From NCBI RefSeq assembly GCF_007860075.1, contig NZ_SJPP01000001.1, positions 4,251,490-4,315,489 on the forward strand: DNA of 64,000 bases. Direction: 5' to 3'. Position 1 is the first letter of the stretch, and every line of letters begins with the position of its first letter. A program made the translations under genes and the position numbers. The notes beneath the pieces are model-generated. The model was not told the origin of the DNA. It did no database searches and saw nothing but the letters and a program-made list of their open reading frames with translations. The DNA comes from Symmachiella macrocystis (GTDB lineage: Bacteria > Planctomycetota > Planctomycetia > Planctomycetales > Planctomycetaceae). Shown in pieces: positions 2,114 through 15,658 of the stretch.

Positions 2114-2527
2114 AAAAATCTATTCCTATTTATCGTCGTTTAAGCGGCCGAATGGCAAACCGTCGGCGCGGACAGACCGGCCAACGGCCTACATCCAGGA
2201 CACTTTTGTGATGGCATTGTTGTGGAGCAGGGAAGTGGGATCAACGTCACTATAATATGGAACGCGGATCTCCCCCAAATGTTTACTGTTCACTGTTCGC
2301 TGAGATAAGAATAGCACGAACTCAACATGGCCTGCCAGTGAAGTTTACGGCGATATGCCCCGTAAATACCCGGGGAATCTTCCGTCGGCAGACTCGCAGC
2401 GTGTCAACAGCCAATTTTGCGGAATCGCATGGCCTTTAAGGATATGTCAAAAAGCCGTACTGGTATTATTCGCGTTAAAATCGAGATTGTCCACCGCTGA
2501 ACACCGCCGGTGTATGGCTGTGACGCG
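2114..2527. other. Intergenic region without a gene
   Basis: About 410 bases between the 3' end of the beta-helix gene and the start of the zinc-ribbon gene, both on the minus strand. Short open frames here show no recognisable protein features. It should carry the promoter of the zinc-ribbon gene, but I cannot point to a convincing -35/-10 pair. No clear terminator stem was seen. Confidence 0.5.
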
Positions 2528-3886
2528 TTATTCGCGGTTGTCGCTCACTTGCGTCGAAAACCCTTGGATTTGGTTGTCTTCCAATCGCAGATCTTTGATT
2601 TGTTTGCCGATTTGAATCCCCACCCGCTCGCCCGCCCCACGCGTTTCGCGGATGTCGTTGCCGCGGATCGTGATTGATTCTAGTTTGCCTTGTAAGTCGA
2701 CTGCGACTCCCTTTTCGGCACCACTGTCGATAATCCGATTGTCGGCCACCGTGTTGCGGTGCGGCGCAAAATTTTTGCCCCGTTCATCCACCCGAAACAA
2801 CACGCCCACCTGACCGCTGCGCAAGATGTCGTTATTGCGGATCAAGTTGTCCGTGTCGCAATGACCAATGGAGATACCGTACTTGGTATTGGCCTCGATG
2901 AGGTTCTTTTCGCACAAACCGTATTTGACGCCCCAGCAGAAAAAGACGCCAATGCCGTTCCGCTCCAATTTGTTCCCCACGATAACCGGTCGCTGGGAGC
3001 CGGAGCCGGGGTGTAAACCCAAATCGGCGTTGTCATGGCTGTAGCAATTCTCAACGACGACGTCGTGGCAAATCTGCCAGCTGATGCCGTCGCCGTTGTA
3101 ATTGCGGGTCGTGACATTGCGAAACGTGATGTTGTTGCAATCCTGCAAAAAAACGCAGCCGCCGTAATTGCCGTTGAAGTTTTCATTGTTTTCGCGGTTG
3201 CCGTCGAACGTCAAATTCTCGATCACCACATTTTCCACATGCTCACCATTGAACAGCGCATGTAGCGCCGTGGCAGTCGGCTTGCCGGACAACCAAAGGT
3301 TCTTCCGTAGCCCCTTGTCGAGTTTGAAGCGATTTCCGGACCGGGCAACGAACGTACGTTTGAGCACCTCGTTGCTGCCGTTGTCAGCATTCTTGGTTCG
3401 TAAACAAACCGCGTCACCCACACGAAACCCATGCCCAGCAGCCAACGTCACTTCTTGATCATACCAATCGGAATCCTCGGTCAGCTTTGCGGAATGCGAG
3501 GGCTCTTTGATGATCACAGAATCCGTGCCCGAACCGACGATCCGCACACTCGATGCCAACTGTACGGCGCTGCGGGTTTTGTAGATACCCGGCAGGATCT
3601 TCACCGTGCCGCCCCCCAAGCGGGCTACATAATCGACAGCCGCCTGCAGCACTTTGTCATCGCTGCCGACAAGCTGCGCGTTCTTGGGGCCGACAGTCAC
3701 CGTCAGTCGTTCTTCCCAGTCCGGCTCGGCAACGCGATCGCCTGATGTCGCCCGTGGTGAGGTAACCGGGGGACGTCCTTCCGCGCCCTGAGCGGAACCG
3801 GTCAAAACCGCAGCACCCAGGCCGCTCGCTGCAAACAGAAATGAACGTCGGTCCAATGGCGATAGTCCGGGAATGTGTGTCGTCAC
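2528..3886 (-). CDS. Secreted right-handed parallel beta-helix repeat protein
   Basis: A 452-residue protein starting at GTG 3886, chosen because a GAGGAG ribosome-binding site lies just upstream (3896-3901) and because the product then begins with a twin-arginine-like signal (RR at 13-14, then FLFAASGLG and a hydrophobic stretch to about 35). Residues 75-130 resemble the start of pectate-lyase-superfamily proteins (GGGTVKILPGIY), and from about 200 on there are regular N/D/G-rich coils (ENVVIENLTF, NNITFRNVTT, VVVENCYSH, NLIEANTKYGISI) typical of parallel beta-helix repeats. Probably an exported carbohydrate-binding or carbohydrate-cleaving protein; I see no residues that fix a substrate. 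An upstream ATG at 4036 would add 50 residues with no signal-peptide character. Confidence 0.85.
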   Translation of the reverse strand: MTTHIPGLSPLDRRSFLFAASGLGAAVLTGSAQGAEGRPPVTSPRATSGDRVAEPDWEERLTVTVGPKNAQLVGSDDKVLQAAVDYVARLGGGTVKILPGIYKTRSAVQLASSVRIVGSGTDSVIIKEPSHSAKLTEDSDWYDQEVTLAAGHGFRVGDAVCLRTKNADNGSNEVLKRTFVARSGNRFKLDKGLRKNLWLSGKPTATALHALFNGEHVENVVIENLTFDGNRENNENFNGNYGGCVFLQDCNNITFRNVTTRNYNGDGISWQICHDVVVENCYSHDNADLGLHPGSGSQRPVIVGNKLERNGIGVFFCWGVKYGLCEKNLIEANTKYGISIGHCDTDNLIRNNDILRSGQVGVLFRVDERGKNFAPHRNTVADNRIIDSGAEKGVAVDLQGKLESITIRGNDIRETRGAGERVGIQIGKQIKDLRLEDNQIQGFSTQVSDNRE

Positions 3887-4114
3887 TGCGCATGTCTCCT
3901 CAATGTGAATGGCACCGGCCCGCGGAAACGCCGCCAGGTTTTCTCTCACTCCGTATTGGTGACATTGTAGGTTCTTGCTGTCATCAATTCGAGCCGATCT
4001 GCCGATCAGACTCGATCCTAACTGGGGGCACGTCATACGAGTCGACAGAGATTACGGGCTGCTGTCCGTATACAGACCGGGCGAACTGCTATGCAACAGG
4101 CTACGGCACAACGG

Positions 4115-5893
4115 CTAAAACGGCCTGAACGGCCAGATTTGCGGCGCCAACAGGACTGTGACGATCCATAGAATGATGCTCAATGGCGCTCCGAGTTTGA
4201 CGTAATCGAAAAGCCGATATCCCCCCGGACCGTAGACCATCAGGTTGGTTTGATAACTCATGGGTGTTGCTAACGCGATGGAAGCGGCGACCATCACTGC
4301 CATGACAAACGGAAGCTGACTGACCCCGACATCGTTTGCGGTCTTGATAGCGATCGGCACAATAATCACAGCAGCCGCCACGTTGGTGATTAGATTCGTA
4401 AACACCATCGTGATGAAATAGATCGCTGCAAGCGCTAAGTAGGGGTGATTATTTCCGACCGCCTTGACGAGCAAGTCGGACACCCCCTCGGCTGCGCCGC
4501 TGCTTGTCATGGCTTGACTCAGAGCAAACCCGGCGGCAATGACAATCAACACCTGCCAATCCACCGCGCGGCGCGCATCGGCTCCGCCGCAGCAACGGAA
4601 GATCAACATCAGCCCGGCGGCCAGCATCGGAGCCAACGGCATCGTCATGAAATCCAACGACACCACCGTGACCATCGCAGCGAGGATACCCAGAGCAATC
4701 CAAGCCCGTTCGTGCCGCGGCTGGGCTGAATCTTGAAGCATGCTCACGAGAAAGAAATCACGAGAGTTTTTTTGCCGTTCTAAAAACGAAGGATGCGCTT
4801 CCAGCAACAGCGTATCGCCGGGCCACAAGGAAATGTCGCCAATCTTCTTTTCCAGCCGTTGTCCGTTACGAGCAACGGCAATGACCGCCGCGTTGTAGAC
4901 GGTTCGAAATCGGCCTTCGCGAATCGTTTTTCCCACCAACGGGCAGGTCGTCGAGACGACCGCTTCCAATAGTCGCCGTTCCGAACGTGGGCTTTTGAGT
5001 TGAAAGATCTGATCGGGGGCCGGTTGCAGGCCGCGAATTTTCTGCAAGTCAATCACCGAATCGATCACGCCCACAAACACCAAGCGGTCGTTGGCCTGCA
5101 AACGTTCTTGTGGCGAGACCGCCGGCAAGACGTGTCCACCCCGATCGATTTCGATCAGGTACACGCCTTGCAAATGCCGCAGACCGGCTTCCTCAATCGT
5201 GCGGCCCACCAACGGGCTGCCCGGTTCGACCAACAATTCGATTGTGTATTCCCGCGCGTCATCTCCATGGCTGATTGCCGGGCGACGATCCGGCAACAGT
5301 CGTCCACAAAACAGAATCACATAGGCAATGCCAATCAATGAGACCGGCAGCCCCAACCAGGCAATCTCAAACATCCCCAAACCGGGGTTGCCCGCTTTGA
5401 TCAACAGGTCGTTGATCACCATGTTTGTGCTGGTGCCGATTAACGTGCACGTGCCGCCCAGAATGGCGGCATAGGAGAGTGGCAACAGCAATCGCGAGAC
5501 CGACTGTCCATACTTTTTGGACCAGTCCCCAATCACCGGCATCATGACGGCTACAACGGGGGTGTTGTTCAAAAACGCACTCATGATCGCGACGGGAAGC
5601 ATAATCCGCGCCTGCGCAGCGCGCTCCGTCGACGGTTTGCCAAGGACATACTGCGACAGAAATGCCATCGCACCGGTTTCCTGCAAGCCGGCCGCCACAA
5701 CAAATAACGCACCAATCGTTACCAACGACGGTTCGCTCAAACCCTGCAGGGCTTCTTTTTCGGTAATGACCCCAGCCGCGATTAATAGCGTCACGCCACC
5801 GACAAAGACAATGTCAGCCCCCACGCGTCCAAAGGCCAGCGTGCCAACAATCAGTGCCGTCACCGCCAGCGTATACCAAGCTTCCCAGCCCAT
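4115..5893 (-). CDS. SLC13/DASS-type anion transporter with two RCK_C (TrkA-C) domains
   Basis: 592 residues with two blocks of membrane helices separated by a soluble insert. The N-terminal half contains the SLC13/ArsB-NhaD-like signatures SAFLNNTPVVAVMMP and GTCTLIGTSTNMVIND; the C-terminal half has a second similar set (NLITNVAAAVIIVPIA and TPMSYQTNLMVYGPGGY). Two RCK_C-like domains sit between them (about 215-290 and 305-375), each with the PLVGRTIEE/PLVGKTIRE opening. In this family such proteins import sulfate, dicarboxylates or other anions with sodium; the substrate cannot be read from the sequence. It is a single gene, divergent from the glycosidase-like gene at 6290, with about 400 bases between. 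Confidence 0.92.
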   Translation of the reverse strand: MGWEAWYTLAVTALIVGTLAFGRVGADIVFVGGVTLLIAAGVITEKEALQGLSEPSLVTIGALFVVAAGLQETGAMAFLSQYVLGKPSTERAAQARIMLPVAIMSAFLNNTPVVAVMMPVIGDWSKKYGQSVSRLLLPLSYAAILGGTCTLIGTSTNMVINDLLIKAGNPGLGMFEIAWLGLPVSLIGIAYVILFCGRLLPDRRPAISHGDDAREYTIELLVEPGSPLVGRTIEEAGLRHLQGVYLIEIDRGGHVLPAVSPQERLQANDRLVFVGVIDSVIDLQKIRGLQPAPDQIFQLKSPRSERRLLEAVVSTTCPLVGKTIREGRFRTVYNAAVIAVARNGQRLEKKIGDISLWPGDTLLLEAHPSFLERQKNSRDFFLVSMLQDSAQPRHERAWIALGILAAMVTVVSLDFMTMPLAPMLAAGLMLIFRCCGGADARRAVDWQVLIVIAAGFALSQAMTSSGAAEGVSDLLVKAVGNNHPYLALAAIYFITMVFTNLITNVAAAVIIVPIAIKTANDVGVSQLPFVMAVMVAASIALATPMSYQTNLMVYGPGGYRLFDYVKLGAPLSIILWIVTVLLAPQIWPFRPF

Positions 5894-6289
5894 GATCGAT
5901 CGTCTCTTCCGCTGTTGTTACATTCACCATCGCATCCCATCATGGAGAACAGGTGCGTCTAAGCGTTTGCATCGGGAATAGGCAGTATCTCAATTCAACG
6001 TTCCGGGGGCAACTTCACAAATTCTCGACAATGTTTATCGAACTCGTTTCAAAACCCGGTTACGCGCCATCTCGAAACTCGTAGCTCCATTATTAGTCGG
6101 ACGCGGCAGATGGTTTTGAAACGACTTGTAGAGAGACCCCTATCCAGGCAGCTAGGTTCGTTGAATTCCGTAGCGGCACAGTGTCTTGTTTCTGCGAACT
6201 GGTTGCAACTTCAACATATTCCAGTTAGCTTCGGAAATTAAAGAATTCCACAAATGAATGCCCCTGAATCAAACGCGGAGCTTACACCG
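5894..6289. other. Divergent intergenic region with inverted repeat
   Basis: Roughly 400 bases between two divergent genes (transporter on minus, glycosidase-like on plus). It contains a perfect 12-base inverted repeat described separately (6045-6123). Both promoters must lie here, but no confident promoter boxes were identified. A short in-frame upstream extension of the plus-strand gene begins at ATG 6254. Confidence 0.5.
6045..6123. repeat. Inverted repeat CGTTTCAAAACC...GGTTTTGAAACG
   Basis: Perfect 12-base arms at 6045-6056 and 6112-6123 with 55 bases between. The right arm with flank (TGGTTTTGAAACGACTTG) recurs almost exactly at 23501-23517 (TGGTTTTGAAACGGCTTG), next to another palindromic element, so this is a dispersed repeat rather than a site unique to this promoter region. 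Confidence 0.55.
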
Positions 6290-7744
6290 ATGAAACGCTT
6301 TACGAAACCTGGATTGTCGATGTTGCTGGGCTTGTACTTCGCCCTGTTGGCTGGCGATGTCGTTGCCAAGGAACCCATCGATATCGGCTCGCGACGTGAA
6401 CTGTTTGTCGACCGCCATCTGATCGGCGAATTGGAGGACGCCCAATTGGTCCTCAACCGCCCCCGCGACATGGGTAGCGCCGTGGAATTCGACGCCCCTT
6501 GGGAAGGCGCTTTTTGCGGCTACTGCACGATCATCAAAGATGGTGACACCTACCGTGCCTATTACCGTGGCTTGCCGCAAGCCCGCCGCGACGGGAGCAA
6601 TTCCGAAGTCACCTGTGTCGCCGAATCGACCGACGGCATCGCCTGGACCAAACCCAAACTGGGCCTCTTCGAGGTCGAAGGCTCCAAAGACAACAACGTC
6701 ATCTTGGCCGATCACGCACCTTTTTCGCACAACTTCTGCCCCATGCTCGACACGCGGCCCGACGTCCCCGCCGACCAGCGGTATAAAGCACTCGCCGGCA
6801 CGCGCAAAACCGGACTGGTTCCGTTCGTTTCCGCCGACGGTCTCAGCTGGAAAAAGCTGCAAGACGAACCGGTCATCACCGCAGGGGCCTTCGATTCCCA
6901 AAACGTGCCAATGTGGTCCGAATCCGAAAACCAATACGTCTGCTACTTCCGCGTCTTCGTCGATGGTGTCCGCCGTATCTCCCGCACGACCTCCAAAGAC
7001 TTCCTCACCTGGACCGAACCGGTCTTGATGGGCTATGACGGCGGACCAATCGAACATCTCTACACGAATCAAACCTCTCCGTACTTCCGTGCCCCGCACA
7101 TCTACGTCGGCATCGCCGCCCGCTTCTTCCCCGGACGCCGCGTGCTCACACCCGAACAAGCCAAAGAAGTCGGTGTTGATCCCGGTTACTTCAATGACTG
7201 TAGCGACGGCGTGCTGATCACCACCCGTGGCGGCGACCAATACAGCCGCACCTTCCCCGAAGGTTTCGTCCGCCCCGGCATCGGCCTAGAGAACTGGGTC
7301 TCGCGGACCAACTACCCCGCGCTGAACGTGGTGCAAACCGGCGATGATACGATGTCGTTTTACGTCAACCAAAACTACGGCCAGCCGACTGCCCACATGC
7401 GTCGCTACGAAATCCGCCTCGACGGCTTCGCCTCGGTCCGCGCCCCGTACACCGGCGGCGAAATGATCACCAAGCCGCTGATCTTCTCCGGCAACCAACT
7501 GGACCTCAACTTCGCCACCTCCGCAGCCGGCGGCATCCGCGTCGAAATCCAAGACGCCGACGGAAAACCCATCCCCGGCTTCACGCTGAAGGAATCCCAA
7601 GAGCTAATCGGCAACGAAATCAGCCGCGCCGCCAGTTGGAAGGGAAACAAAGACGTCAGCAAACTCGCCGGCAAACCAGTGCGGTTAAGATTTGTGATGA
7701 AGGACGCGGATTTGTACGCGTTGCAGTTTGCGGGCGAGAAGTGA
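6290..7744 (+). CDS. Secreted glycosidase-like (five-bladed propeller) protein
   Basis: 484 residues from ATG 6290, which follows a GGAG site by nine bases and gives an immediate basic region plus hydrophobic signal peptide (KRFTKPGLSMLLGLYFALLAG). An in-frame ATG at 6254 would add 12 residues ahead of the signal. The mature part starts with ELFVDRHLI and contains CTIIKDGDTYRAYYRG, ESTDGIAWTKPKLGL and VISADG-type blade motifs that are typical of planctomycete and verrucomicrobial secreted proteins distantly related to GH43/GH32 five-bladed glycosidases. The last 100 residues look like a beta-sandwich tail. Likely exported polysaccharide-processing or binding protein; catalytic acids cannot be assigned with confidence. 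A multi-hairpin repeat starts ten bases after the stop. Confidence 0.85.
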   Translation: MKRFTKPGLSMLLGLYFALLAGDVVAKEPIDIGSRRELFVDRHLIGELEDAQLVLNRPRDMGSAVEFDAPWEGAFCGYCTIIKDGDTYRAYYRGLPQARRDGSNSEVTCVAESTDGIAWTKPKLGLFEVEGSKDNNVILADHAPFSHNFCPMLDTRPDVPADQRYKALAGTRKTGLVPFVSADGLSWKKLQDEPVITAGAFDSQNVPMWSESENQYVCYFRVFVDGVRRISRTTSKDFLTWTEPVLMGYDGGPIEHLYTNQTSPYFRAPHIYVGIAARFFPGRRVLTPEQAKEVGVDPGYFNDCSDGVLITTRGGDQYSRTFPEGFVRPGIGLENWVSRTNYPALNVVQTGDDTMSFYVNQNYGQPTAHMRRYEIRLDGFASVRAPYTGGEMITKPLIFSGNQLDLNFATSAAGGIRVEIQDADGKPIPGFTLKESQELIGNEISRAASWKGNKDVSKLAGKPVRLRFVMKDADLYALQFAGEK

Positions 7745-7754
7745 TTTAGTCCAC

Positions 7755-7877
7755 GGGTGGCCCCGAAAGATTCTTTCGGGGCGGCGCAGCCGCAGGAGTT
7801 TTGGCAGAGAATCACGCTGAAAACAAAGCTCCTCCAGCCGACTTCGTCGGCCCACAAAGAATCTTTGTGGGCCACCC
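7755..7877. repeat. Multi-hairpin palindromic element, copy 1
   Basis: A 123-base unit bounded by GGGTGGCC and GGCCACCC. Inside, in order: hairpin H1 with arms CCCCGAAAGA/TCTTTCGGGG, hairpin H2 (GCGGC-GCA-GCCGC), an inner stem half GCAGGAG, an A-rich linker, the partner half (here CTCCAGC, mutated from CTCCTGC), hairpin H3 (CCGAC-TTC-GTCGG) and hairpin H4 with arms CCCACAAAGA/TCTTTGTGGG. Copies 2-4 are at 8447, 10039 and 12308. It lies ten bases after the glycosidase-like gene stop and 27 bases before the next gene. Confidence 0.9.
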
Positions 7878-7904
7878 TGTGACCGAACGTCTTTTCTGGT
7901 AGGA

Positions 7905-8426
7905 ATGGAAAAACGAGTGGAATTCGATGTTTCCTACAACTTGACCTGCAAGCTCACACTCGATTCGGGCCGTGACATTATTTTGGAGCAGTTGTATCAG
8001 GAACGGACCTACCGTGGTCTGCTCGAAGGGACACCCAATCGGGTGGCGAACGATTGGGGAATCGAACATAACTTGAGTTTTGCCAGAAAGTTGGCGGGCA
8101 GCATCGGTGACCCCTATTTGATTGCACCGAATCGTCGTGATTATGTTCGTGTTCCTGGTGACATGGATCAGATCCGCGAGGATATCGAAAAACGGCTTGG
8201 GGATTGGGAAGAGGGACTGCAACAGCGGCTGCCGGAATGGATTCCGTTTGTCTGTTGCATCGGATGCTTCACGTCGGTGAAGCCGGCGCGTGATCCGAGC
8301 AAAGACTATTCCGCGCTGACCGTCGTTTGGTACCAAGACGATTTTGCGATGCCAATCGATCCCGCGATTCAGAACGAATTGCGTTCGTTGAATTGGAACA
8401 AACATGCGACGGACGGCGAGCATTAG
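7905..8426 (+). CDS. Hypothetical cytosolic protein, immunity-like context
   Basis: A 173-residue soluble protein with no signal peptide or membrane segment and a mixed alpha/beta composition; residues 82-105 form an acidic/basic helix (MDQIREDIEKRLGDWEEG) and 115-125 carry FVCCIGCF. I do not recognise the family. It stands alone between copies 1 and 2 of the multi-hairpin element. The ATG at 7905 lies directly after GGTAGGA, which is too close for a good ribosome-binding site, so initiation may be weak or the start misplaced. Neighbouring genes resemble toxin-immunity proteins, so a similar role is possible but not shown. Confidence 0.6.
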   Translation: MEKRVEFDVSYNLTCKLTLDSGRDIILEQLYQERTYRGLLEGTPNRVANDWGIEHNLSFARKLAGSIGDPYLIAPNRRDYVRVPGDMDQIREDIEKRLGDWEEGLQQRLPEWIPFVCCIGCFTSVKPARDPSKDYSALTVVWYQDDFAMPIDPAIQNELRSLNWNKHATDGEH

Positions 8427-8446
8427 TCCTGGTTTTCGTACGTCAC

Positions 8447-8569
8447 GGGTGGCCCCGAAAGATTCTTTCGGGGCGGCGCTGCCGCAGGAGGACGTGCAGA
8501 GAAACACACATAAAACAATCCACCTCCTGCCGACTTCGTCGGCCCACAAAGAATCTTTGTGGGTCGCCC
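8447..8569. repeat. Multi-hairpin palindromic element, copy 2
   Basis: Same architecture as copy 1: H1 arms intact, H2 (GCGGCGCTGCCGC), inner stem GCAGGAG/CTCCTGC intact, H3 CCGAC-TTC-GTCGG, H4 intact, right boundary diverged to GGGTCGCCC. The linker between the inner stem halves differs most from the other copies, as expected if only structure is conserved. Confidence 0.88.
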
Positions 8570-8621
8570 TGCGGGAAGTAAATTACCGCAACCGAGTGGC
8601 ATGTCAAAGTTAAAAAGTGGA

Positions 8622-8648
8622 GTGCCACTGGCGGCTAGTCCGCCAGTG
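8622..8648. repeat. GTGCCACTGGC-type hairpin repeat
   Basis: Arms CACTGGCGG and CCGCCAGTG pair perfectly around a five-base loop (CTAGT). The same motif family occurs at 23359, 23413-23490 and 39673, always between genes. Confidence 0.7.
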
Positions 8649-8730
8649 TTCGCGGACTACGGAAACGGCTACCCCAAGATCAAGATTTGACAGGGCACGG
8701 CATGGCTGTGTTTGAAATGTCGCGGTCCAT

Positions 8731-9087
8731 TCATGAAGTTCTGTATGGCGAGGAATCTGGATTTCGGAAATCCATCATTCTCCACAGCCATTCACCTTCG
8801 CGGCAGTCCTGATTGAAGACAGCAATAAGTGCGGGCTCGGTCTGATCCGCTGCGTCATCGCAAGTGTCCGAAATCACAGCGATATTGAGCCAGTTCTTAA
8901 AACCGTGCGCTAGGCAAAGGCGATGAAGTGTATCCTCTTCGGCCTCGGAGTGGGTGGTTGGAACCGCGACGATACATTGAGTATCAGCCTCATACCGATC
9001 GACTGTCGGTAGATAGACGGCACACCAACGGGGAAATTCGTAAATGTGGGATAGCACAAAGCCAAGGTTGTGAAATGTAAGTGGCAT
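8731..9087 (-). CDS. Hypothetical protein, possibly DUF7716-like
   Basis: 118 residues, soluble, with an AGGTC site upstream of ATG 9087. The N-terminal half (LSHIYEFPRWCAVYLPTVD then DTQCIVAVP) followed by a GFKNWLNIAVISD segment and a NQDCREGEWL tail resembles small proteins often annotated as DUF7716, which frequently occur with polymorphic toxins. I rate that assignment as tentative. It is on the minus strand, as are the two genes upstream of it, at 9258 and 9623, but is separated from them by about 170 bases. Confidence 0.65.
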   Translation of the reverse strand: MPLTFHNLGFVLSHIYEFPRWCAVYLPTVDRYEADTQCIVAVPTTHSEAEEDTLHRLCLAHGFKNWLNIAVISDTCDDAADQTEPALIAVFNQDCREGEWLWRMMDFRNPDSSPYRTS

Positions 9088-9257
9088 AAGATTTGACCTG
9101 CGACGGCGTGAAACCAGATTTTTGCGCTAGTACCCGCTTCGTGAAGACTGCCCGAGGTGAACCAGACCACCGAGAATAAGCCTAATTGTACCAAGAAGCG
9201 GCGGGCCATGTCCGCTGTAGCGCGAGTTCACTCGTCCTCGAAAGTCAGGTGTAGCCG

Positions 9258-9593
9258 CTAAAATCCACCCACCGATTCCATGGCAGCTTTCAGACCTTCG
9301 AACTCGCTATCGGCGAGGTCAAATCGGATCTCAATCTCCTCGTCCAGTTCCAACTTTTTTGCCAGCTCTGGCGCGAACCGCAAGGTGATGCTATCGCGAT
9401 GCACTACGTAGTCCACAAGGCCAATCCCGGAACGGAACGGCATGTTCCGAGAGCAATGCCCATACATATCGATCGTCAGCCCTTCGCGGCCGTACAAGTG
9501 ATCCTCCCATTGGAAGCAGATCCAACCTTCGCCGTGATCGATTCCTACAGAGTCCGGCCAGCCGATGTCGATTGCTCTGAAGGTTTGCATCAC
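9258..9593 (-). CDS. Imm10-like immunity protein
   Basis: 111 residues. The C-terminal block LRFAPELAKKLELDEEIEIRF followed by FEGLKAAMESVGGF matches the characteristic end of the Imm10 family (Leu-rich strand, AAKKL helix, acidic DEEIEI turn, then an F-x-x-L helix), and the N-terminal strand region (CFQWEDHLYGREG) fits the rest. Imm10 members are predicted to neutralise toxins of polymorphic toxin systems in the cytoplasm. GTG 9593 is followed at once by ATG 9590, either of which could start translation. It lies 29 bases downstream of the 9901-9623 gene, so the two are probably co-transcribed. No toxin gene is adjacent. Confidence 0.75.
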   Translation of the reverse strand: MMQTFRAIDIGWPDSVGIDHGEGWICFQWEDHLYGREGLTIDMYGHCSRNMPFRSGIGLVDYVVHRDSITLRFAPELAKKLELDEEIEIRFDLADSEFEGLKAAMESVGGF

Positions 9594-9622
9594 GGTCTAT
9601 CCAATGGAGACGGCTGCTGCGG

Positions 9623-9901
9623 CTAGTTAGCCCTCTCATCATCACACACGAAACGAACTCCGCCAGTCTCTGCATCGACGATTCGATCGATCTCGTCCGC
9701 CAAAAAGAAATCAATCTCGTGCGGGCAATTGGGCTCCGGGCTGATATTTGTCGTGATGTGGGCCACCGTCTCACCGACGTCGTAGCCCCAAGCGATGTTG
9801 TGCACAACGCGAATGGTTCCGTCACACAAGTGGACGTTGAAAGTGTCCCCCACTCGCATAGTCCGGAGAATGTCTAACGCTCTTGCGTAGGGCGGCATCA
9901 C
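9623..9901 (-). CDS. Small hypothetical protein, first gene of an immunity-like pair
   Basis: 92 residues, soluble, acidic. Residues 1-30 read as a helix then strand (ALDILRTMRVGDTFNVHLCDGTIRVVHNIAWG), and the tail (ETGGVRFVCDDERAN) is polar. It starts at GTG 9901/ATG 9898 and is followed after 29 bases by the Imm10-like gene in the same direction, so an operon is likely. I do not recognise the family and offer no function beyond the association. Confidence 0.62.
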   Translation of the reverse strand: MMPPYARALDILRTMRVGDTFNVHLCDGTIRVVHNIAWGYDVGETVAHITTNISPEPNCPHEIDFFLADEIDRIVDAETGGVRFVCDDERAN

Positions 9902-10038
9902 AGAGTCAGGCTAACTTATTAATAAAATGGACGGTGTCTCACCTGTCGGCTATAAGTTTGTAGCCTAACGTGCAGTTACTCGATTCTCGCAAGTCGTATC
10001 TTAACAATGATTTTCTCGTTTTTCACATGTCTTGCCAC

Positions 10039-10161
10039 GGATGGCCCCGAAAGATTCTTTCGGGGCGGCGCAGCCGCAGGAGTTTTGGCAGAGAATCACG
10101 CTGAAAACAAAGCTCCTCCTGCCGACTTCGTCGGCCCACAAAGAATCTTTTTGGGCCACCC
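10039..10161. repeat. Multi-hairpin palindromic element, copy 3
   Basis: Same order of H1, H2, inner GCAGGAG/CTCCTGC stem, H3 and H4. The left boundary reads GGATGGCC instead of GGGTGGCC and the H4 right arm has one change (TCTTTTTGGG). The linker is identical to that of copy 1. An in-frame open stretch runs through it into the following gene but is not coding. Confidence 0.88.
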
Positions 10162-10229
10162 TGCGAATGGTGTTATTCTGGAATATTCTAGCAGAGCAAA
10201 ACGCAATTTACTCCGGCAGGGGCGCCGCT

Positions 10230-10850
10230 ATGACGGACAATCTAGACCTAACCGACTTGAAATGGGACGCAGAATGCGAGGAGTGGTGTTCGCAGATTAC
10301 CATTCCGGAACTCGCCTCATGCGACGCATCCACTGAACAACGCATCCCAATATCAACGGACCTTTCGCAGGCATCTTTCCCGTTGTTGGTCCACAACCGC
10401 ATGGGCAACGAGCAACCCACGGGTTGGCAGTGCGAAGCTCTTTCGTTTTTCAACGGGCATCGTGCGGAGATTGTTGGCAATTCCCTGCAAGCGATCCTGG
10501 AATGGTATGTTCCTTATGTTGATGAATACCGCCAAGTGTTCCAAGCATATTCCCCACCGGACGACAGCCTTGATGACTTGGACAAAGACTTCCCGGTAAT
10601 TGACAACACCGACCAGTTGCGTGCATTGATTGCGCTGGATTGTGTGGTCGTCCACGAAGCGTCGCGCGGCGGAGTCTCCGACATCGGGCTCTGCTTCGAT
10701 TGTTGCTGGGATGATGAACACGGACTGGGGGTGTTGGTAAATAAGCTAGACGTAGTTAAAATGGGAGGTGCGGATGTTGCCACGGAGGACCGGTATGAGA
10801 CATTTCTCAATGGCACGGAATGGAAACTGGCCCCGGAGACGTCTGGTTAA
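10230..10850 (+). CDS. DUF6985-like protein (putative immunity protein)
   Basis: 206 residues from ATG 10230, preceded by GCAGGGG; frames running further upstream only read through the repeat element. The middle holds QCEALSFFNGHRAEIVGNSLQAILEWY and the C-terminal third IGLCFDCCWDDEHGLGVLVNKLDVVKMGGADVA, which fits the DUF6985 pattern (a W-D-E-E-H-G-L-G-V core followed by V-x-x-x-G-G-A-D). DUF6985 proteins are common next to contact-dependent or polymorphic toxin loci and are suspected immunity factors; the assignment is from motif memory. The SUKH gene follows after 45 bases in the same direction. Confidence 0.75.
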   Translation: MTDNLDLTDLKWDAECEEWCSQITIPELASCDASTEQRIPISTDLSQASFPLLVHNRMGNEQPTGWQCEALSFFNGHRAEIVGNSLQAILEWYVPYVDEYRQVFQAYSPPDDSLDDLDKDFPVIDNTDQLRALIALDCVVVHEASRGGVSDIGLCFDCCWDDEHGLGVLVNKLDVVKMGGADVATEDRYETFLNGTEWKLAPETSG

Positions 10851-10895
10851 CCTATTATGAATGAGTTGAACACTGGAACTAGGTGAGTCGCAATA

Positions 10896-11633
10896 ATGTC
10901 TCATATACCGTGCACGGGAGATCAGGATGCGGACGCTTTCATTCATACGATTCGGCGGCGACTTATTGCAATTGCCGATGAGCCTCCGTATCGCTACATC
11001 AATACTACACCCGAAGATCGTGCGGAGTACGAAGCTAAAAAACGATCGTTCACAGGTTACGCGCTCGAAGAAATCCTAGCGGTTGAGTCTCGCCTCGACA
11101 TTCGATTTCCCGCAGTCTATCGTGCGTTTCTTCACATCATGGGCATCTCGAATGGAGATCTTTTCTGTGGATCGAATGTCGCATCACTCGAGAACTACGA
11201 TCAATTGCAGGAATTTGCTCAGGATCTCATACACGAATGCCACGTCAATTGGCAATTGGATAAAAAGGCATTCGTTTTTCTAGGACATCAAGGTTATACA
11301 TTCAATTACTTTATTGCAGACGGTCGTTTCGACAGCCCAGTTCACCAATATGTCGAGAATGACCAATCGGGGACGCAATGCTCTCCGGGTTTTGCTGAAT
11401 TCATCGATGCCGAGGTTAGCTTGGCAGAACAAAACAACCAAAATATCCGTGACGCCGGTGGCTATTTTCTCACGATTGCAGATGGTTGCGTTTCGCAAGA
11501 ACATCCGACTCGTAATTCAGGCATTCGCCCACTTGATCTCCCAGATCAAACCTCTGAAGCTAGCAAGAATGAAAAACACATTCGCAGTCTTAAGCCTTGG
11601 TGGCGTTTTGGTAAGCCCGTAGTAAAGGAATAA
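10896..11633 (+). CDS. SMI1/KNR4 (SUKH) family protein
   Basis: 245 residues, with AGGTGAG nine bases before ATG 10896. The domain occupies about 45-170: a helix beginning EEILAVESRLDIRFPAVYRAFLHIMG (the SUKH entry motif, where the helix E-x-R-L...LP-x-x-Y-x-x-F-L is diagnostic), then SLENYDQLQEFAQD, then FVFLGHQGYTFNYFIADG and a Phe/Glu-rich close (GFAEFIDAE). SUKH proteins act as immunity factors against many nuclease and deaminase toxins. The C-terminus ends in SLKPWWRFGKPVVKE, a Pro-Trp-Trp tail shared with the unrelated protein at 52773. No toxin partner is visible nearby, so it is an orphan. Confidence 0.9.
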   Translation: MSHIPCTGDQDADAFIHTIRRRLIAIADEPPYRYINTTPEDRAEYEAKKRSFTGYALEEILAVESRLDIRFPAVYRAFLHIMGISNGDLFCGSNVASLENYDQLQEFAQDLIHECHVNWQLDKKAFVFLGHQGYTFNYFIADGRFDSPVHQYVENDQSGTQCSPGFAEFIDAEVSLAEQNNQNIRDAGGYFLTIADGCVSQEHPTRNSGIRPLDLPDQTSEASKNEKHIRSLKPWWRFGKPVVKE

Positions 11634-11736
11634 GCCTGCCCTATGCCTTGCCCTGTGTGGCAATTGAATGCAACCAGCGAGCCGCCGCTCGCCGGGTCGC
11701 GCGCAATCTGGCAACGCCTCGCAGGAGACTGCTTGA

Positions 11737-12273
11737 ATGATGAAATCCACTTTCGAAAAGATCGAACTCGATTCCTCGCGTTTCTGGTGTCTGCACGTCG
11801 CTGACGAGGCCGAACGCCAAGCTCTCTCTGGGGAGATATTCCATCACTACAAGCTAGAAAGAGTAAGCTGTATTATCGCCCAACCAGCCAGCCTGGATTC
11901 CGTGCGTCGTCGTTTATTTCGCCAACCAACTGTCATCGAATGGCTCACTCAAAACGCCGACATCTCAGCAGATGATGCCGCTGCCATTATTGGTGGACTC
12001 CCCGTTCACGTATTGCCGCTGTTATCGTACAACGCAGGGAATCCGCGTGCATTCCTTGGTCTCGCCGCTGCAATTGCCAAAAAGCCAGATGTCATCGTCT
12101 ATTCAACTTCCGGAATGGACCTGTGCGGTATTTTGTTGATGCACAACTATGCTCCGGCCCATTATCCCGATGGCTGCCTTATTCATGTTTCACCACAACT
12201 GATTGGTGACGGCCCGCATTGTGCGAATGACGCCCAATGTGTGACGATTCAATTCCGCGGACAAACCTCATGA
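11737..12273 (+). CDS. Hypothetical protein of the immunity-like island
   Basis: 178 residues starting at ATG 11737 (a second ATG follows at 11740) after an AGGAG site. It opens with EKIELDSSRFWCLHVADEAER and has a Pro/Leu-rich middle (IIGGLPVHVLPLLSYNAGNPRAFLGLAAAIAKKPDVIVYST). There is no signal peptide or clear membrane helix. The family is not recognised; similar sequences in my experience are small cytosolic orphans. It ends 34 bases before copy 4 of the multi-hairpin element. Confidence 0.6.
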   Translation: MMKSTFEKIELDSSRFWCLHVADEAERQALSGEIFHHYKLERVSCIIAQPASLDSVRRRLFRQPTVIEWLTQNADISADDAAAIIGGLPVHVLPLLSYNAGNPRAFLGLAAAIAKKPDVIVYSTSGMDLCGILLMHNYAPAHYPDGCLIHVSPQLIGDGPHCANDAQCVTIQFRGQTS

Positions 12274-12307
12274 TACATAAGTGCAGTAGGTTGGGATGAA
12301 AGCTCCC

Positions 12308-12432
12308 GGGTGGCCCCGAAAGATTCTTTCGGGGCGGCGCAGCCGCAGGAGTTCTGGCAGAGAATCACGCTTAAAAAACAAAACACCTCCTGCCGACTTC
12401 GTCGGCCCACAAAGAATCTTTGTGGGCCACCC
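12308..12432. repeat. Multi-hairpin palindromic element, copy 4
   Basis: Same architecture as copies 1-3, with GGGTGGCC and GGCCACCC boundaries, H1, H2, inner stem GCAGGAG/CTCCTGC, H3 and H4 all intact; the linker carries small changes (TTCTGG, TTAAAAAACA). It closes accessory island 1 and sits just past the 3' end of the small membrane protein gene. Confidence 0.9.
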
Positions 12433-12447
12433 TGTATCTTGACTCAC

Positions 12448-12840
12448 TTACTGTTGCGAATCACCGATGGGGATCTCTGCTTCGTATTCAATGTCGTAGG
12501 TCTTTAAAAAACCTTCCACGGCTTCGCGTGAGGAGGAGATTGTTTCGTAGGTGGGGATGACTTTTTCGTTGAGAATTTCCAGTCGCTCTACCATCAACGC
12601 AGGGTCGTGCTCATCTTCGCTGGTAATGGCCACCAGTCCGCGCGTTAGATTCTTCAGGATATTGTTTGACTGGATGTTTCCGTTCAGCGACCCGATGTAT
12701 CCTCCTCCTGCAAACGCTAGCATGCAGAACCCGATCACAAGCAAAGTTTGGACGGTCACTCGAATTCCGCGGTTGCGGAAACCGAACTCGACGCCAAACC
12801 AAACGATTGCTGATAGTACTATCCAAAACTCTAAGTACAT
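12448..12840 (-). CDS. Small membrane protein, two N-terminal helices
   Basis: 130 residues, starting seven bases after AGGAG. Residues 1-20 and about 27-50 are hydrophobic helices (FWIVLSAIVWFGVEF and VTVQTLLVIGFCMLAFAGGGYIG); the remaining 80 residues are soluble, helical and acidic (MVERLEILNEKVIPTYETIS). No family recognised. The gene stands alone, convergent with island 1 and upstream of the YHYH gene on the same strand. Confidence 0.68.
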   Translation of the reverse strand: MYLEFWIVLSAIVWFGVEFGFRNRGIRVTVQTLLVIGFCMLAFAGGGYIGSLNGNIQSNNILKNLTRGLVAITSEDEHDPALMVERLEILNEKVIPTYETISSSREAVEGFLKTYDIEYEAEIPIGDSQQ

Positions 12841-12914
12841 CGATTAACTCCTATCAGCCCCTCGTACGCGTTATCATGTGTCTTACGCCCGCCAGTCGGC
12901 CAGATTGCCCACGA

Positions 12915-13880
12915 CTAACGCCGACGTCGCGGTGGCGGACGGCGGCCACGACCACTGGGTGGGCGGCGGCGTTCGAAGTCGCGGGAGGGGGTGCCGCTGA
13001 AGGCTCGAGGGATCACCGGCCACTCTTCGGTCAGAAAATAGGCATACGTCCCTTCGGGAAAATCAGGCGTGACACAAAAGCGGCCGTTGCACTCGTCCAG
13101 GTCTCCCGCGCCCTCGACGAATTCATAATCGGCGACAAATGTGCCGTCGTATTGACCGCCCGGTTCGCCGCGGCCGCTGGGGCGACGTCCTGATTTCAAA
13201 CGATAACTTGAGGCGAGTGCTTTTACTTTGCTTTCGGGATTCTCAGCATCGGCGTAGCCATAAACGGCATAGATCGGATACCCGTCCGCTGCCCAACCGA
13301 CCAACGGAGAATGGCTCTGCTTTTTGAGTCCAAGTATTTCAAGCAACTCCGTGGGCAGTCCGTGATAATGGTAAGCGCCTGTCGGTTGCACGTGGGCGTA
13401 GTTTCCATCGATTCCCAATCGAACCGCTCCCGACAGTGCTTCGTATTGCCAACCGCTTTGCCGATTCCCGAGAAAAAACTCTGCTGCTCCCGGATCAAAC
13501 GGAATGCCGTTGACGGCAATACCAAAGTCCTGCAATCCCAGCGGCGTAATCCGTCGGGCTTGTTCAGGCTCGGCCGGAATGCGGAACAAGTATTTTTGTG
13601 CAGTGATGCGGTGCGGATTCCCGCGATTGGGGAAAGCCCCGGTCGAATGATTCGGGATGCCGTTGGCGCGAATCACGCGCACGTCACCGTCGACCTGGAT
13701 CGACACGCTATTCTTTCCCGGCGGTTTTTGAGTGTCAGGAACGAGCTGCAGTTTCCCGGTCGACTGCGTCGTCGTGTGCCGCCGCGCCGGTGGCGGTCCC
13801 CCGGGAAATTGCGTCCAGGCAACGGTCGCCAGCGAGAGGACCGTGATCGCTGCCGCGAGCAGTTTGCGTAGTGGTTTCAC
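12915..13880 (-). CDS. Secreted YHYH-domain protein
   Basis: 321 residues from GTG 13880, chosen because AAGGA lies seven bases upstream and the product then starts with a clean signal peptide (KPLRKLLAAAITVLSLATVAWTQ). The YHYH motif is at 170-173 (GAYHYHGLP), followed by PLVGWAADGYPIYAVYGY, the conserved continuation of the YHYH family (PF14240). The extreme C-terminus is Arg/Pro-rich (RRRPPSGRGRRPPPRRRR). Family members are exported proteins of unknown function, many from marine bacteria. An upstream ATG at 13949 would add 23 residues ahead of the signal. Confidence 0.88.
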   Translation of the reverse strand: MKPLRKLLAAAITVLSLATVAWTQFPGGPPPARRHTTTQSTGKLQLVPDTQKPPGKNSVSIQVDGDVRVIRANGIPNHSTGAFPNRGNPHRITAQKYLFRIPAEPEQARRITPLGLQDFGIAVNGIPFDPGAAEFFLGNRQSGWQYEALSGAVRLGIDGNYAHVQPTGAYHYHGLPTELLEILGLKKQSHSPLVGWAADGYPIYAVYGYADAENPESKVKALASSYRLKSGRRPSGRGEPGGQYDGTFVADYEFVEGAGDLDECNGRFCVTPDFPEGTYAYFLTEEWPVIPRAFSGTPSRDFERRRPPSGRGRRPPPRRRR

Positions 13881-13961
13881 TAGGAGTTCCTTCGACTGAG
13901 TACTCGAATCGGTTTGCCTTAGTGGCAACTCGCAGGTGAGCTTGGACAAGCCTCTGGCAAG

Positions 13962-14699
13962 CTACCTGTTGGATGTCCAGTTCTTGCGAAAATTCGGTCG
14001 GCCTTCAATATTCGCAATGAAATGAATATTGTTCAACCCCGTGATGTTCACATCCCAATGCAAGGCAATGTAGTAGATGACCGCCAACTGCCAAGCGGCA
14101 TTCGGCTCGCCTCCGCTTATCGGAAATGCCCACATCGTGCGATCCGGATCATCAAACCAATCATGCATTTCGTCGCGGAGTTCTTGGGGAACGACCGAGG
14201 AGGAAAGGTCTAAATCAATTCCGAAATATGAAAGCCAGACGGGAAGCTGGTCCAACAGTTTCAATGTCTTTCGCTTTACTTTGGGAAGAACTAATAGATA
14301 ACGCTCGTCGGTCAAGCAATCCGCATGCTCAGCAGTAAAAGCCACGGTGGGAGTGCGATAACGTTTCGCCAATCCTGCGTCGATGGCGAATGCAGGAGGC
14401 TGTATCGGCAAAAAATAATTAACATAATTCGACAGCTTTTCTCCGGCCTCGTTTCCTAAAACCATACCATGAGGATACATTAAATTGGCATCCAGACCGT
14501 CTGGTCTCGCGAATCCGTTCCGGCTGCGTTCGGGAATATCTCGCGGCTGCGCAAGGATACCCCCACCAAACTGACCCGGTTGAAAATGCCAGCCATCGGT
14601 TCTTCGCTCGGCCCATTCTCGCTTGATCGTGCTCATATCTTGGCACTCATAGATGAGTGACGGGAAGATATGATAGCTGTCATTGCCGACAAGTTGCAT
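13962..14699 (-). CDS. Hypothetical protein, 245 residues
   Basis: Starts at ATG 14699 with GGAG seven bases upstream (an ATG at 14714 is less well placed). The product is soluble, with aromatic-rich segments (HIFPSLIYECQDMS, GWHFQPGQFGGG, FGIDLDLSSSVVPQELRDEMHDWFDDPDRTMWAF) and no signal peptide. I do not recognise the family; the acidic WFDDPDRTMW segment and the final NINGLNNIHFIA-type stretch are the most distinctive parts. Its cytosolic character and unknown family suggest it belongs with the accessory genes just upstream rather than with the secreted proteins around it. Confidence 0.6.
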   Translation of the reverse strand: MQLVGNDSYHIFPSLIYECQDMSTIKREWAERRTDGWHFQPGQFGGGILAQPRDIPERSRNGFARPDGLDANLMYPHGMVLGNEAGEKLSNYVNYFLPIQPPAFAIDAGLAKRYRTPTVAFTAEHADCLTDERYLLVLPKVKRKTLKLLDQLPVWLSYFGIDLDLSSSVVPQELRDEMHDWFDDPDRTMWAFPISGGEPNAAWQLAVIYYIALHWDVNITGLNNIHFIANIEGRPNFRKNWTSNR

Positions 14700-14871
14700 C
14701 TGATGTCTCCGCATTGGCTCGGAGAGTTTCTAAATCATGATTCGCGTCAGGCGGCGGTCTGATCTACACAGGATTGCATCTCAATCCACCTCCACCGGTG
14801 CCTCATCCAGCAAGGATCGCACAATGCGACCGCAAGCGGTCGGTTTGGGATTTTCGATGTGCATCCTGGAA

Positions 14872-14910
14872 AATCCGTGTTTAATCTGTGTTCCATCTGT
14901 GGCTAAGAAA
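14872..14910. repeat. Degenerate G/T-rich dispersed repeat (TCCGTG/TCTGTG/TCTGTGG)
   Basis: Three imperfect tandem copies of a TCYGTGTT-like unit (AATCCGTGTTTAATCTGTG followed by TTCCATCTGTGGC) in the gap between two genes. Related phrases occur at 33510-33540 and 48763-48784. I have seen such phrases between genes in several planctomycete and verrucomicrobial sequences; function unknown. Confidence 0.5.
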
Positions 14911-14938
14911 ATTGCCACTTACCGACTCGTTACGTTGC

Positions 14939-15658
14939 TTAATTCTCCTGAATCCGCACGTTACGAAAATCGATTTTCCAATCTTCCGCTTGGAAGCCAA
15001 TTGGGCCTTCGGTGAGGGGGCCGGGTTGGCTTTCGGCGATTTTTACGCCGTTGAGAATCGACAACAGTGCGCCGTCTTGGGATTGGATTTCCAGGCTGTT
15101 CCATTGTCCGGCCGGTTTGCGGTGTTGGATGCGGGCTTCCTCGTCGTCGGTCGCTTCGACGGCGTCCGCGCCGCCGATGGCGACGATTTTTGCGAGTTGT
15201 ACATATTTCCCCTGCACCTCAACGCAGGCCGGCCAGGGGGTGTTGTCGTTGTTGATGTACATCATATAGCCGGTATTCCCTTTGAACTTGTCGTCGTCCT
15301 TCAGGTTCTTGGGCCGCTCATAGCGAAAATCGAGCCGCAGCGTAAAGTTGCGGTAACTCTTCTTGGTGGCTAAGTACCCACGGGGGCGGCCGCCGCAGCG
15401 AATGGTGTGTCCTTCGATGGACCACGTTGCTGCCTCACCGACCGGGACGGTGAATTCGCTCATGTCTTCGTGATTGGCGAGGAATACGAAGCCCTCTTCC
15501 AATTCAAACGGCGGTTCCTCGACGACTGGCGCCGGGGTTTCTACTTCGGTCGTAGCGGGCGGGTCGATTGGTTTGTCGGCGGCGGAATTGCAGGCGGACA
15601 ACAGCGGGCCGCAGAGCAGGAACAACATACGACAAACTGTCAGACGATGACGAGACAT
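14939..15658 (-). CDS. DUF1080 (3-keto-disaccharide hydrolase-like) lipoprotein
   Basis: 239 residues from ATG 15658 with GGAAG upstream. It begins with a lipoprotein signal ending in LSAC (C23), then a Pro-rich linker to about residue 50. The rest is one DUF1080 beta-sandwich: WSIEGHTIRCGGRPRGYLATKK, NFTLRLDFRYERP, GNTGYMMYIN, WPACVEVQ, GQWNSLEIQSQDG and the closing GPIGFQAEDWKIDFRNVRI are family hallmarks. DUF1080 domains are greatly expanded in Planctomycetota and act outside the cytoplasm on sugars; some hydrolyse 3-keto-glycosides. The substrate here is unknown. Confidence 0.92.
   Translation of the reverse strand: MSRHRLTVCRMLFLLCGPLLSACNSAADKPIDPPATTEVETPAPVVEEPPFELEEGFVFLANHEDMSEFTVPVGEAATWSIEGHTIRCGGRPRGYLATKKSYRNFTLRLDFRYERPKNLKDDDKFKGNTGYMMYINNDNTPWPACVEVQGKYVQLAKIVAIGGADAVEATDDEEARIQHRKPAGQWNSLEIQSQDGALLSILNGVKIAESQPGPLTEGPIGFQAEDWKIDFRNVRIQEN

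Follow-up and report, generated by a model that had tools for sequence, protein, structure and literature searches.

In the 64,000-nucleotide stretch of Symmachiella macrocystis DNA analysed here (the window, from contig NZ_SJPP01000001.1), we focused on four structured elements of 123-125 bp that lie between positions 7,755 and 12,432. A first-pass annotation, made from the sequence alone, had described four copies of about 123 bp, and a repeat search of the window recovered all four where it had placed them. We conclude that they are almost certainly REPINs, or bacterial interspersed mosaic elements (BIMEs), in which repetitive extragenic palindromic (REP) units are paired, and that they belong to a planctomycete REPtron whose REP-associated tyrosine transposase (RAYT) is encoded elsewhere in the genome. 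Below, G000 is the window's own genome, with contigs C1, C2, C3 and C4, and G001 and G002 are congeners. The elements and the genes around them are as follows, in window coordinates.

7755..7877, plus strand: REPIN/BIME copy 1, with unit A at 7755-7798 (+), linker at 7799-7831 and unit B at 7832-7877 (-)
7905..8426, plus strand: 173-aa gene without a Pfam match, conserved in G001, the last gene of the left syntenic block
8427..12907, no strand: variable region, in which blastn finds the elements alone shared with the syntenic 6.3-kb interval of G001
8447..8569, plus strand: REPIN/BIME copy 2, with unit A at 8447-8490 and unit B at 8524-8569 (-)
8731..9087, minus strand: 118-aa gene with a DUF7716 domain, in the variable region
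9258..9593, minus strand: 111-aa gene with a weak Imm10 match below the cut-off (17.7 vs 28.6 bits)
9623..9901, minus strand: 92-aa open reading frame in the variable region, without a Pfam match
10039..10161, plus strand: REPIN/BIME copy 3, with unit A at 10039-10082 and unit B at 10116-10161 (-)
10230..10850, plus strand: 206-aa gene (counted from its ATG) with DUF6985, searched as 10224-10847
10896..11633, plus strand: 245-aa gene with an SMI1/KNR4 (SUKH-1) domain
11737..12273, plus strand: 178-aa gene without a Pfam match over the cut-off
12308..12432, plus strand: REPIN/BIME copy 4, with unit A at 12308-12351 and unit B at 12387-12432 (-)
12448..12840, minus strand: 130-aa gene without a Pfam match over the cut-off, the last gene of the variable region

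Comparison of the copies in G000 and G001 revealed that each copy contains the same 44-46 nt unit twice, in opposite orientations, with a linker of 33-35 nt in between. The unit runs from a foot (GGGTGG) through hairpins 1 and 2 to a tail (CAGGAG). Unit A has the GGGTGG foot, hairpin 1, a hairpin 2 of GCGGC-GCA-GCCGC and AGGAG; unit B is like unit A but has a 6-bp hairpin 2 (GCCGAC-GAA-GTCGGC). The nested design described in the first-pass annotation was thus built on real stems, but its GGGTGGCC/GGCCACCC boundary stem and its inner GCAGGAG/CTCCTGC stem are the foot and the tail of one repeated unit meeting their inverted partners. A GTGG tag stands 5' of hairpin 1 (as GGGTGG) in the window units, except that copy 3 unit A has GGATGG and copy 2 unit B has an altered foot. 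All four copies point in the same orientation. In a BLAST search with copy 1, identity was 97% for copy 3, 95% for copy 4 and 88% for copy 2; copy 4 scored only 66% in the repeat search due to a 2-nt linker indel. Copies 1 and 3 share the same linker and that of copy 4 is close to it, and copy 2 has a different one. Copy 1 lies between codirectional genes, with an ATG at 7905, 27 nt further on, and G001 holds its orthologue at the same place. Copies 2 and 4 each lie between convergent genes and copy 3 between divergent ones; copy 2 begins 21 nt past the left boundary of the variable region. Target-site duplication was looked for in the flanks by eye, and no direct repeat was evident around the four copies. 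The annotation had called the elements REP/MITE-type. With no target duplication and the RAYT link described below, we rejected a DDE-type miniature inverted-repeat transposable element (MITE) and retained the REP kind, which the RAYT and the inverted units support.

We then considered the predicted structure. Every copy, on both strands, folded better than all 200 shuffles (z of -4.9 to -6.6). Two folds compete, one long hairpin in which unit 1 pairs along unit 2 and a clover-type fold. With DNA parameters, the long hairpin was the predicted minimum for copies 1, 3 and 4, the clover-type fold lying 2.6-3.0 kcal/mol higher, and the clover-type fold was the predicted minimum for copy 2. The cloverleaf proposed at first pass is therefore the minimum for one copy, but not for the other three. 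The annotation had called the cloverleaf unusual, but neither fold is peculiar to these elements, since both are described for REPINs in the part of PMC3116915 available to us; what we say of other cited papers refers, unless noted, to such parts. The annotation had also claimed that stem partners were conserved in pairs. Four near-identical copies cannot show this, but 17 distinct B-type units can: 5 of the 9 pairs of hairpin 1 had changed on both sides, a significant covariation, and 97.1% of the cells of both hairpins were paired, compared with at most 50.4% in slid controls. Hairpin 2 of the B units scarcely varied within the genus. Among 33 distinct units flanking RAYT genes, which were chosen by tag, hairpin 1 and tail and not by hairpin 2 (one further unit, from L215, was left out), 31 had a hairpin 2 of at least 4 bp, compared with 14.5% of shuffled segments, and 28 different sequences were represented. 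Foot and tail are almost invariant across units, and as a result the outer and inner stems give no covariation evidence of their own. A joint MAFFT alignment of A and B units was set aside for misplacing hairpin 1; RNAalifold on that alignment gave 4 pairs, in hairpin 2 only.

The annotation had placed the elements only among small immunity-like genes, which holds within the window but not across the genome. A covariance model of the unit (R2) gave at least 42 raw matches in G000 and at least 59 in G001 at E 0.01, these counts being lower bounds because only 150 candidates were scored per genome. Overlapping reverse-strand echoes were dropped (4 of the 42 and 2 of the 59) and one weak partner unit was added in each genome, leaving at least 39 units in 29 clusters in G000 and at least 58 units in 44 clusters in G001. 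The G000 clusters lie on C1 (19), C2 (7) and C3 (3), with a further weak BLAST match on C4. Two-unit clusters numbered 10 of 29 in G000 and 14 of 44 in G001, with a linker of 31-39 nt in 22 of these 24. At E 0.001, R2 matched 9 of 61 genomes of the family, and a DNA search matched 8 of 40 genomes, both counts including the window's own genome; the congener G002 was not among the DNA matches. A pattern scan of a broader collection of genome contigs gave no match, and the window's own or near genomes may be absent from that collection. Two arrangements elsewhere were recorded. At L126:6208-8526 (G056:C1), R2 REP-like units, all in one direction, occur in tandem repeats of about 300 nt, with 8 copies in register at a spacing of about 300 or 251 nt. 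L125 (G067:C173), a 9.4-kb contig from a different genus, carries five same-direction units 0.9-3.4 kb apart in an array-like order.

The first-pass annotation had suggested an outside transposase and a search for a REP-associated one. G000 has two Y1 transposase genes (PF01797), one of which belongs to the RAYT clade studied here. This gene, P0001 (C1:1724252-1724767), encodes 171 aa and scored 45.3 bits to PF01797 and 110.7 bits to NF047646, the REP_Tyr_transpos equivalog, with a cut-off of 80. Its product matched E. coli TnpA_REP (4er8) at E 6.3e-5, in an alignment that pairs their HxH and Y..NP stretches. A unit A ends 91 nt upstream of the gene and an inverted unit B lies just downstream. 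In a REPtron as defined in the literature, two inverted REPs headed by GT(A/G)G stand on either side of a RAYT gene (PMC2817692), and the G000 locus has this defining arrangement. A counterpart in G001 has the same gene as its neighbour, and G001 also holds a second REPtron. The G000 and G001 REPtron proteins share the HUH motif [DN]H[MV]H and the Y motif YMHxNP, and all three have WT as their W motif, compared with WQ in three relatives and WL or WF in others. An autonomous IS200/IS605 insertion sequence (IS) with a high-identity multicopy transposase was considered and rejected, because only 2 Y1_Tnp genes occur in G000, one of them in this clade, and the NF033573 score of 31.6 bits falls below its cut-off of 55.

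The association between gene and unit recurs beyond this genome. A scan of named genomes gave 17 RAYT loci, six of which came from planctomycete metagenome-assembled genomes at 52-61% identity. Over 29 RAYT loci with proteins 45-100% identical to that of G000, units stood on both sides of the gene at 15, on one side at 6 and on neither at 8; of 202 windows taken from other parts of these loci, 1 had a unit on the strand tested. These flanking units follow the same foot-hairpin-tail plan with mostly different stem letters, and carry the GTGG or GTAG tag that the scan required. Across the 61 family genomes, the RAYT clade was found in 9 of 9 with units and in 17 of 52 without (hypergeometric p = 1.8e-4). 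Taken together, we regard as established the unit anatomy, the covariation of both hairpins, the intergenic dispersal in G000 and G001, the inverted units around this RAYT and many relatives, and the co-occurrence of RAYT and units. The suspected outside transposase thus corresponds to a RAYT elsewhere in the genome; that it mobilised the elements is suggested by analogy.

The elements resemble REPINs or BIMEs of E. coli, Pseudomonas and Stenotrophomonas REPtrons in having an inverted REP pair, a variable linker and a GT(A/G)G tag 5' of a GC-rich hairpin (PMC2817692, PMC3116915, PMC6006769). Like E. coli Y and Z2, they combine two unit variants within one pair, and like REPINs they are intergenic, adopt clover or long-hairpin folds (PMC3116915), occur as clusters and truncated singlets, and have a RAYT flanked by inverted units. 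Unlike those systems, by their descriptions, each planctomycete unit carries a further hairpin that is conserved and covaries, as well as a CARGAR-type tail that is also conserved. REP families are variously described as often having 20-100 units or fewer (PMC3733652) and as usually exceeding 100 (PMC2817692). With its HUH and Y motifs, its 171 aa and its score above the NF047646 cut-off, the protein is like the RAYT subclasses in Table 1 of PMC6006769; its WT motif appears in no class-2 row of that table, and class 3, mainly from Planctomycetes, differs in its Y motif and goes with CnGA-footed repeats, unlike the GTGG units here. A. tumefaciens CGTC-3 REP dimers similarly have small stem-loops at both spacer ends between inverted REPs, but their tag is CGTC rather than GTGG, and CGTC repeats are listed without a transposase-gene association (PMC3733652). 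Planctomycete REPs or RAYTs are mentioned in general terms (PMC3733652, PMC6006769); we found no paper on a two-hairpin planctomycete REP in the text portions searched, and supplementary files might list such units.

To describe the surroundings of the elements, we compared G000 with G001 over 26 orthologous region pairs, with 6 paralogous pairs excluded by hand, and scored each indel of at least 50 bp as a break, which gave 52 breaks. The comparable territory contained 52 clusters (23 of the 29 in G000 and 29 of the 44 in G001), and 51 of these were intergenic by our own gene calls. The outer end of the cluster lay within 10 bp of a break in 17 of the 52 (9 in G000 and 8 in G001) and within 30 bp in 21; in the 17 the distance from the outer unit end was 0-8 bp. 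Uniform placement predicted 0.86 clusters within 10 bp (maximum of 5 in 2000 trials), and placement restricted to intergenic DNA predicted 2.8 (maximum of 11 in 2000 trials). By a hand count the 17 represent about 12 independent events, 5 being counted in both genomes, and in 2 of the 12 or so the element itself is the indel. At the G000 RAYT locus, 2.7 kb of G000-only DNA has its break 4 bp beyond the downstream unit. The second G001 REPtron, ordered unit A, RAYT and unit B, stands at a site where 2.8 kb of different DNA is found in G000; the breaks lie 2 bp (left) and 37 bp (right) from a unit. At C1:271568, identity falls from 91.5% to 76.6% at the element end, beside a 228-bp indel. The G001 insert L081:346-3225 shows an overlap of 10-20 bp that could be either duplication or microhomology, and we did not count it as a target duplication. 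We conclude that element ends coincide with synteny breaks for a minority of elements, above chance. E. coli O-antigen clusters offer a likeness, in that REPs there lie at possible recombination points next to a gene cluster that has been exchanged (PMC3158064); that report covers few cases at one locus, as opposed to about 12 independent events in one genome pair here. The papers listed by a literature search on REPs and synteny breakpoints all dealt with eukaryotes or with methods. As a separate observation, a second REP-like hairpin (GTGCCACTGGC...GCCAGTG), possibly another REP family, occurs at window 8620-8660, L081:270-420 and L075:6200-6400, in places close to breaks.

At the window array, the flanks align with G001 on the left (1062-8426, 91.4%) and on the right (12908-15281, 94.0%). 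Between them, the window genes are small and partly immunity-like (SMI1/KNR4 of SUKH, DUF6985, DUF7716 and the sub-threshold Imm10); SUKH is an immunity superfamily. The G001 interval instead holds DUF7336, leucine-rich repeat and unmatched genes. The linker motif of the array, GCAGAGAATCACG, allowing up to 2 changes, lay within 60 bp of a unit in 7 of its 45 occurrences, all 7 at the window locus in G000 and G001; the search covered about 1 Mb of sequence, in which no other unit had GCAGAGAATCACG beside it. Two more G001 arrays (3284954/3285887 and 5753490/5754625) each have shared linkers of their own. Because the members of an array share their own linker type, we conclude that arrays probably grew locally. 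In two G001 array elements (L069:4658-4701 and L069:6205-6248), unit B is lost down to a few letters, the hairpin part apparently having been deleted. The DNA of the weak Imm10-like gene (window 9236-9612) is 80% identical to G002 C51:2770-3147 and may have moved between loci, since that contig has no other syntenic matches. Two further repeats lie outside the array. A sequence of about 100 nt at 14790-14920 has at least 25 related places in G001, with further ones in G002, and is not a REP unit by the model, and a stretch of about 95 nt at 6040-6138, upstream of a gene at 6254, recurs more than 10 times in G002.

A potential model for these observations draws on known REPtrons. The RAYT, as a TnpA_REP-like HUH/Y1 nuclease, would recognise foot and hairpin on single-stranded DNA and cut beside the unit, and so would have spread elements in the past; in studied REPtrons the tag takes part in the choice of cut, and a Marinomonas substrate altered to GTGG was cleaved in vitro at CC or CA (PMC8266576). 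The four-copy array would have grown locally, its same-direction elements, like others, would act as junctions where neighbouring DNA is gained, lost or replaced, and later turnover of the neighbouring genes may have come about through recombination at the repeats. Several findings weigh against this reading. The genome comparison revealed no transposition or excision, and at the two sites where an element is itself the indel (G000 C1:928906 and C2:102424) the REPIN is truncated and the junction is not clean. Most residues with which E. coli TnpA_REP reads the tag (W-Q and others) are altered in the G000 RAYT, IWTPKYYSFEIY replacing IWQPRFWEHAIR. TnpA_REP subclasses vary in these residues (PMC6006769), so their alteration does not exclude RAYT membership. 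The scan used found no unit at 8 of the 29 RAYT loci, and G002 had no R2 match at E 0.001 although it has the RAYT clade; more divergent units do stand next to its RAYTs. With respect to the junction role, the compared regions were picked around elements and not at random, 35 of the 52 clusters had no break within 10 bp and 31 none within 30 bp, and 94 of 104 break ends per genome had no unit end within 10 bp. Some clusters, such as C1:3086932 and C1:3183814, kept their place in both species. In the window array, copy 2 is 21 bp from a break of its region and the other three copies are 476-1613 bp away.

How neighbouring genes came to be exchanged could be explained in several ways. The explanation to which we lean slightly is that homologous or replication-slippage recombination between the hairpin repeats makes and breaks gene arrays, the RAYT having only dispersed the elements earlier. 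The common orientation of the four copies and the linkers shared within one array are consistent with this, as are a repeated unit-plus-flank segment at G000 C2:959215-960909, of which G001 has one, and the REPs at possible recombination points of E. coli O-antigen loci (PMC3158064). However, the repeats are short (about 123 bp), and at several breaks the edge of a single unit abuts unrelated DNA, in place of a pair of recombined repeats. Such sharp breaks, 0-8 bp from outer unit ends in the 17 near-break clusters, would instead be expected if two units, in the same direction or inverted, bracketed a gene like IS200/IS605 ends and the RAYT moved immunity-type cargo. The second G001 REPtron, occupying a site of other DNA in G000, fits this, and one member of the G001 array has a gene between its unit A and its inverted unit B, in the position of the short linker found in other members. 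Still, no cassette was found to have moved intact with its units between two loci, the local linker common to array members suggests local duplication, and cargo movement is not reported in the portions of the RAYT literature examined; we consider cassette mobility unlikely.

It is similarly doubtful that the coincidence is a by-product of passive accumulation, in which indels and REP copies are tolerated in the same non-essential intergenic spots. Clusters were nearly all intergenic, as were 87 of 104 and 89 of 104 break ends by the same gene calls, and REPs are known as IS targets (PMC1525189), but the null restricted to intergenic DNA fell well short of the 17 clusters observed. A control intergenic repeat lay within 10 bp of a break at 0 of 6 comparable sites and within 30 bp at 1 of 6, too few to decide. 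The strong predicted folds on both strands could also reflect a structured RNA acting as a terminator, mRNA stabiliser or riboregulator of immunity genes. We regard this as very improbable because the genes around the four copies are codirectional, convergent or divergent, depending on the copy; in addition, an Rfam scan of the whole window returned nothing at the gathering score, and such units bracket RAYT genes in many genomes.

A broader and, in our judgement, still less probable proposal than cassette mobility is that the RAYT system of this lineage is a gene-cassette shuffler. The two-hairpin REP units would serve as its cut-and-join points, between which the RAYT, by itself or helped by host recombination, would repeatedly take up, lose and swap small immunity-type genes. 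If this were true, REPtrons would be an integron-like diversification device and not mere parasites or regulators; the likeness of the array to an integron attC cassette array is superficial. The identification of the elements as REPINs has consequences of its own. A two-hairpin unit with its own RAYT clade extends REPtron diversity past the proteobacterial systems with described biochemistry. REPs have long been suspected as recombination marks, and PMC3158064, in the part available, describes only a handful of examples from a single E. coli locus and calls for comparison across whole genomes. The array elements lie in an immunity-type gene set wholly different from that of the congener, and the clear excess of REP ends at gene-content breaks in a planctomycete genus makes this long-standing guess testable.

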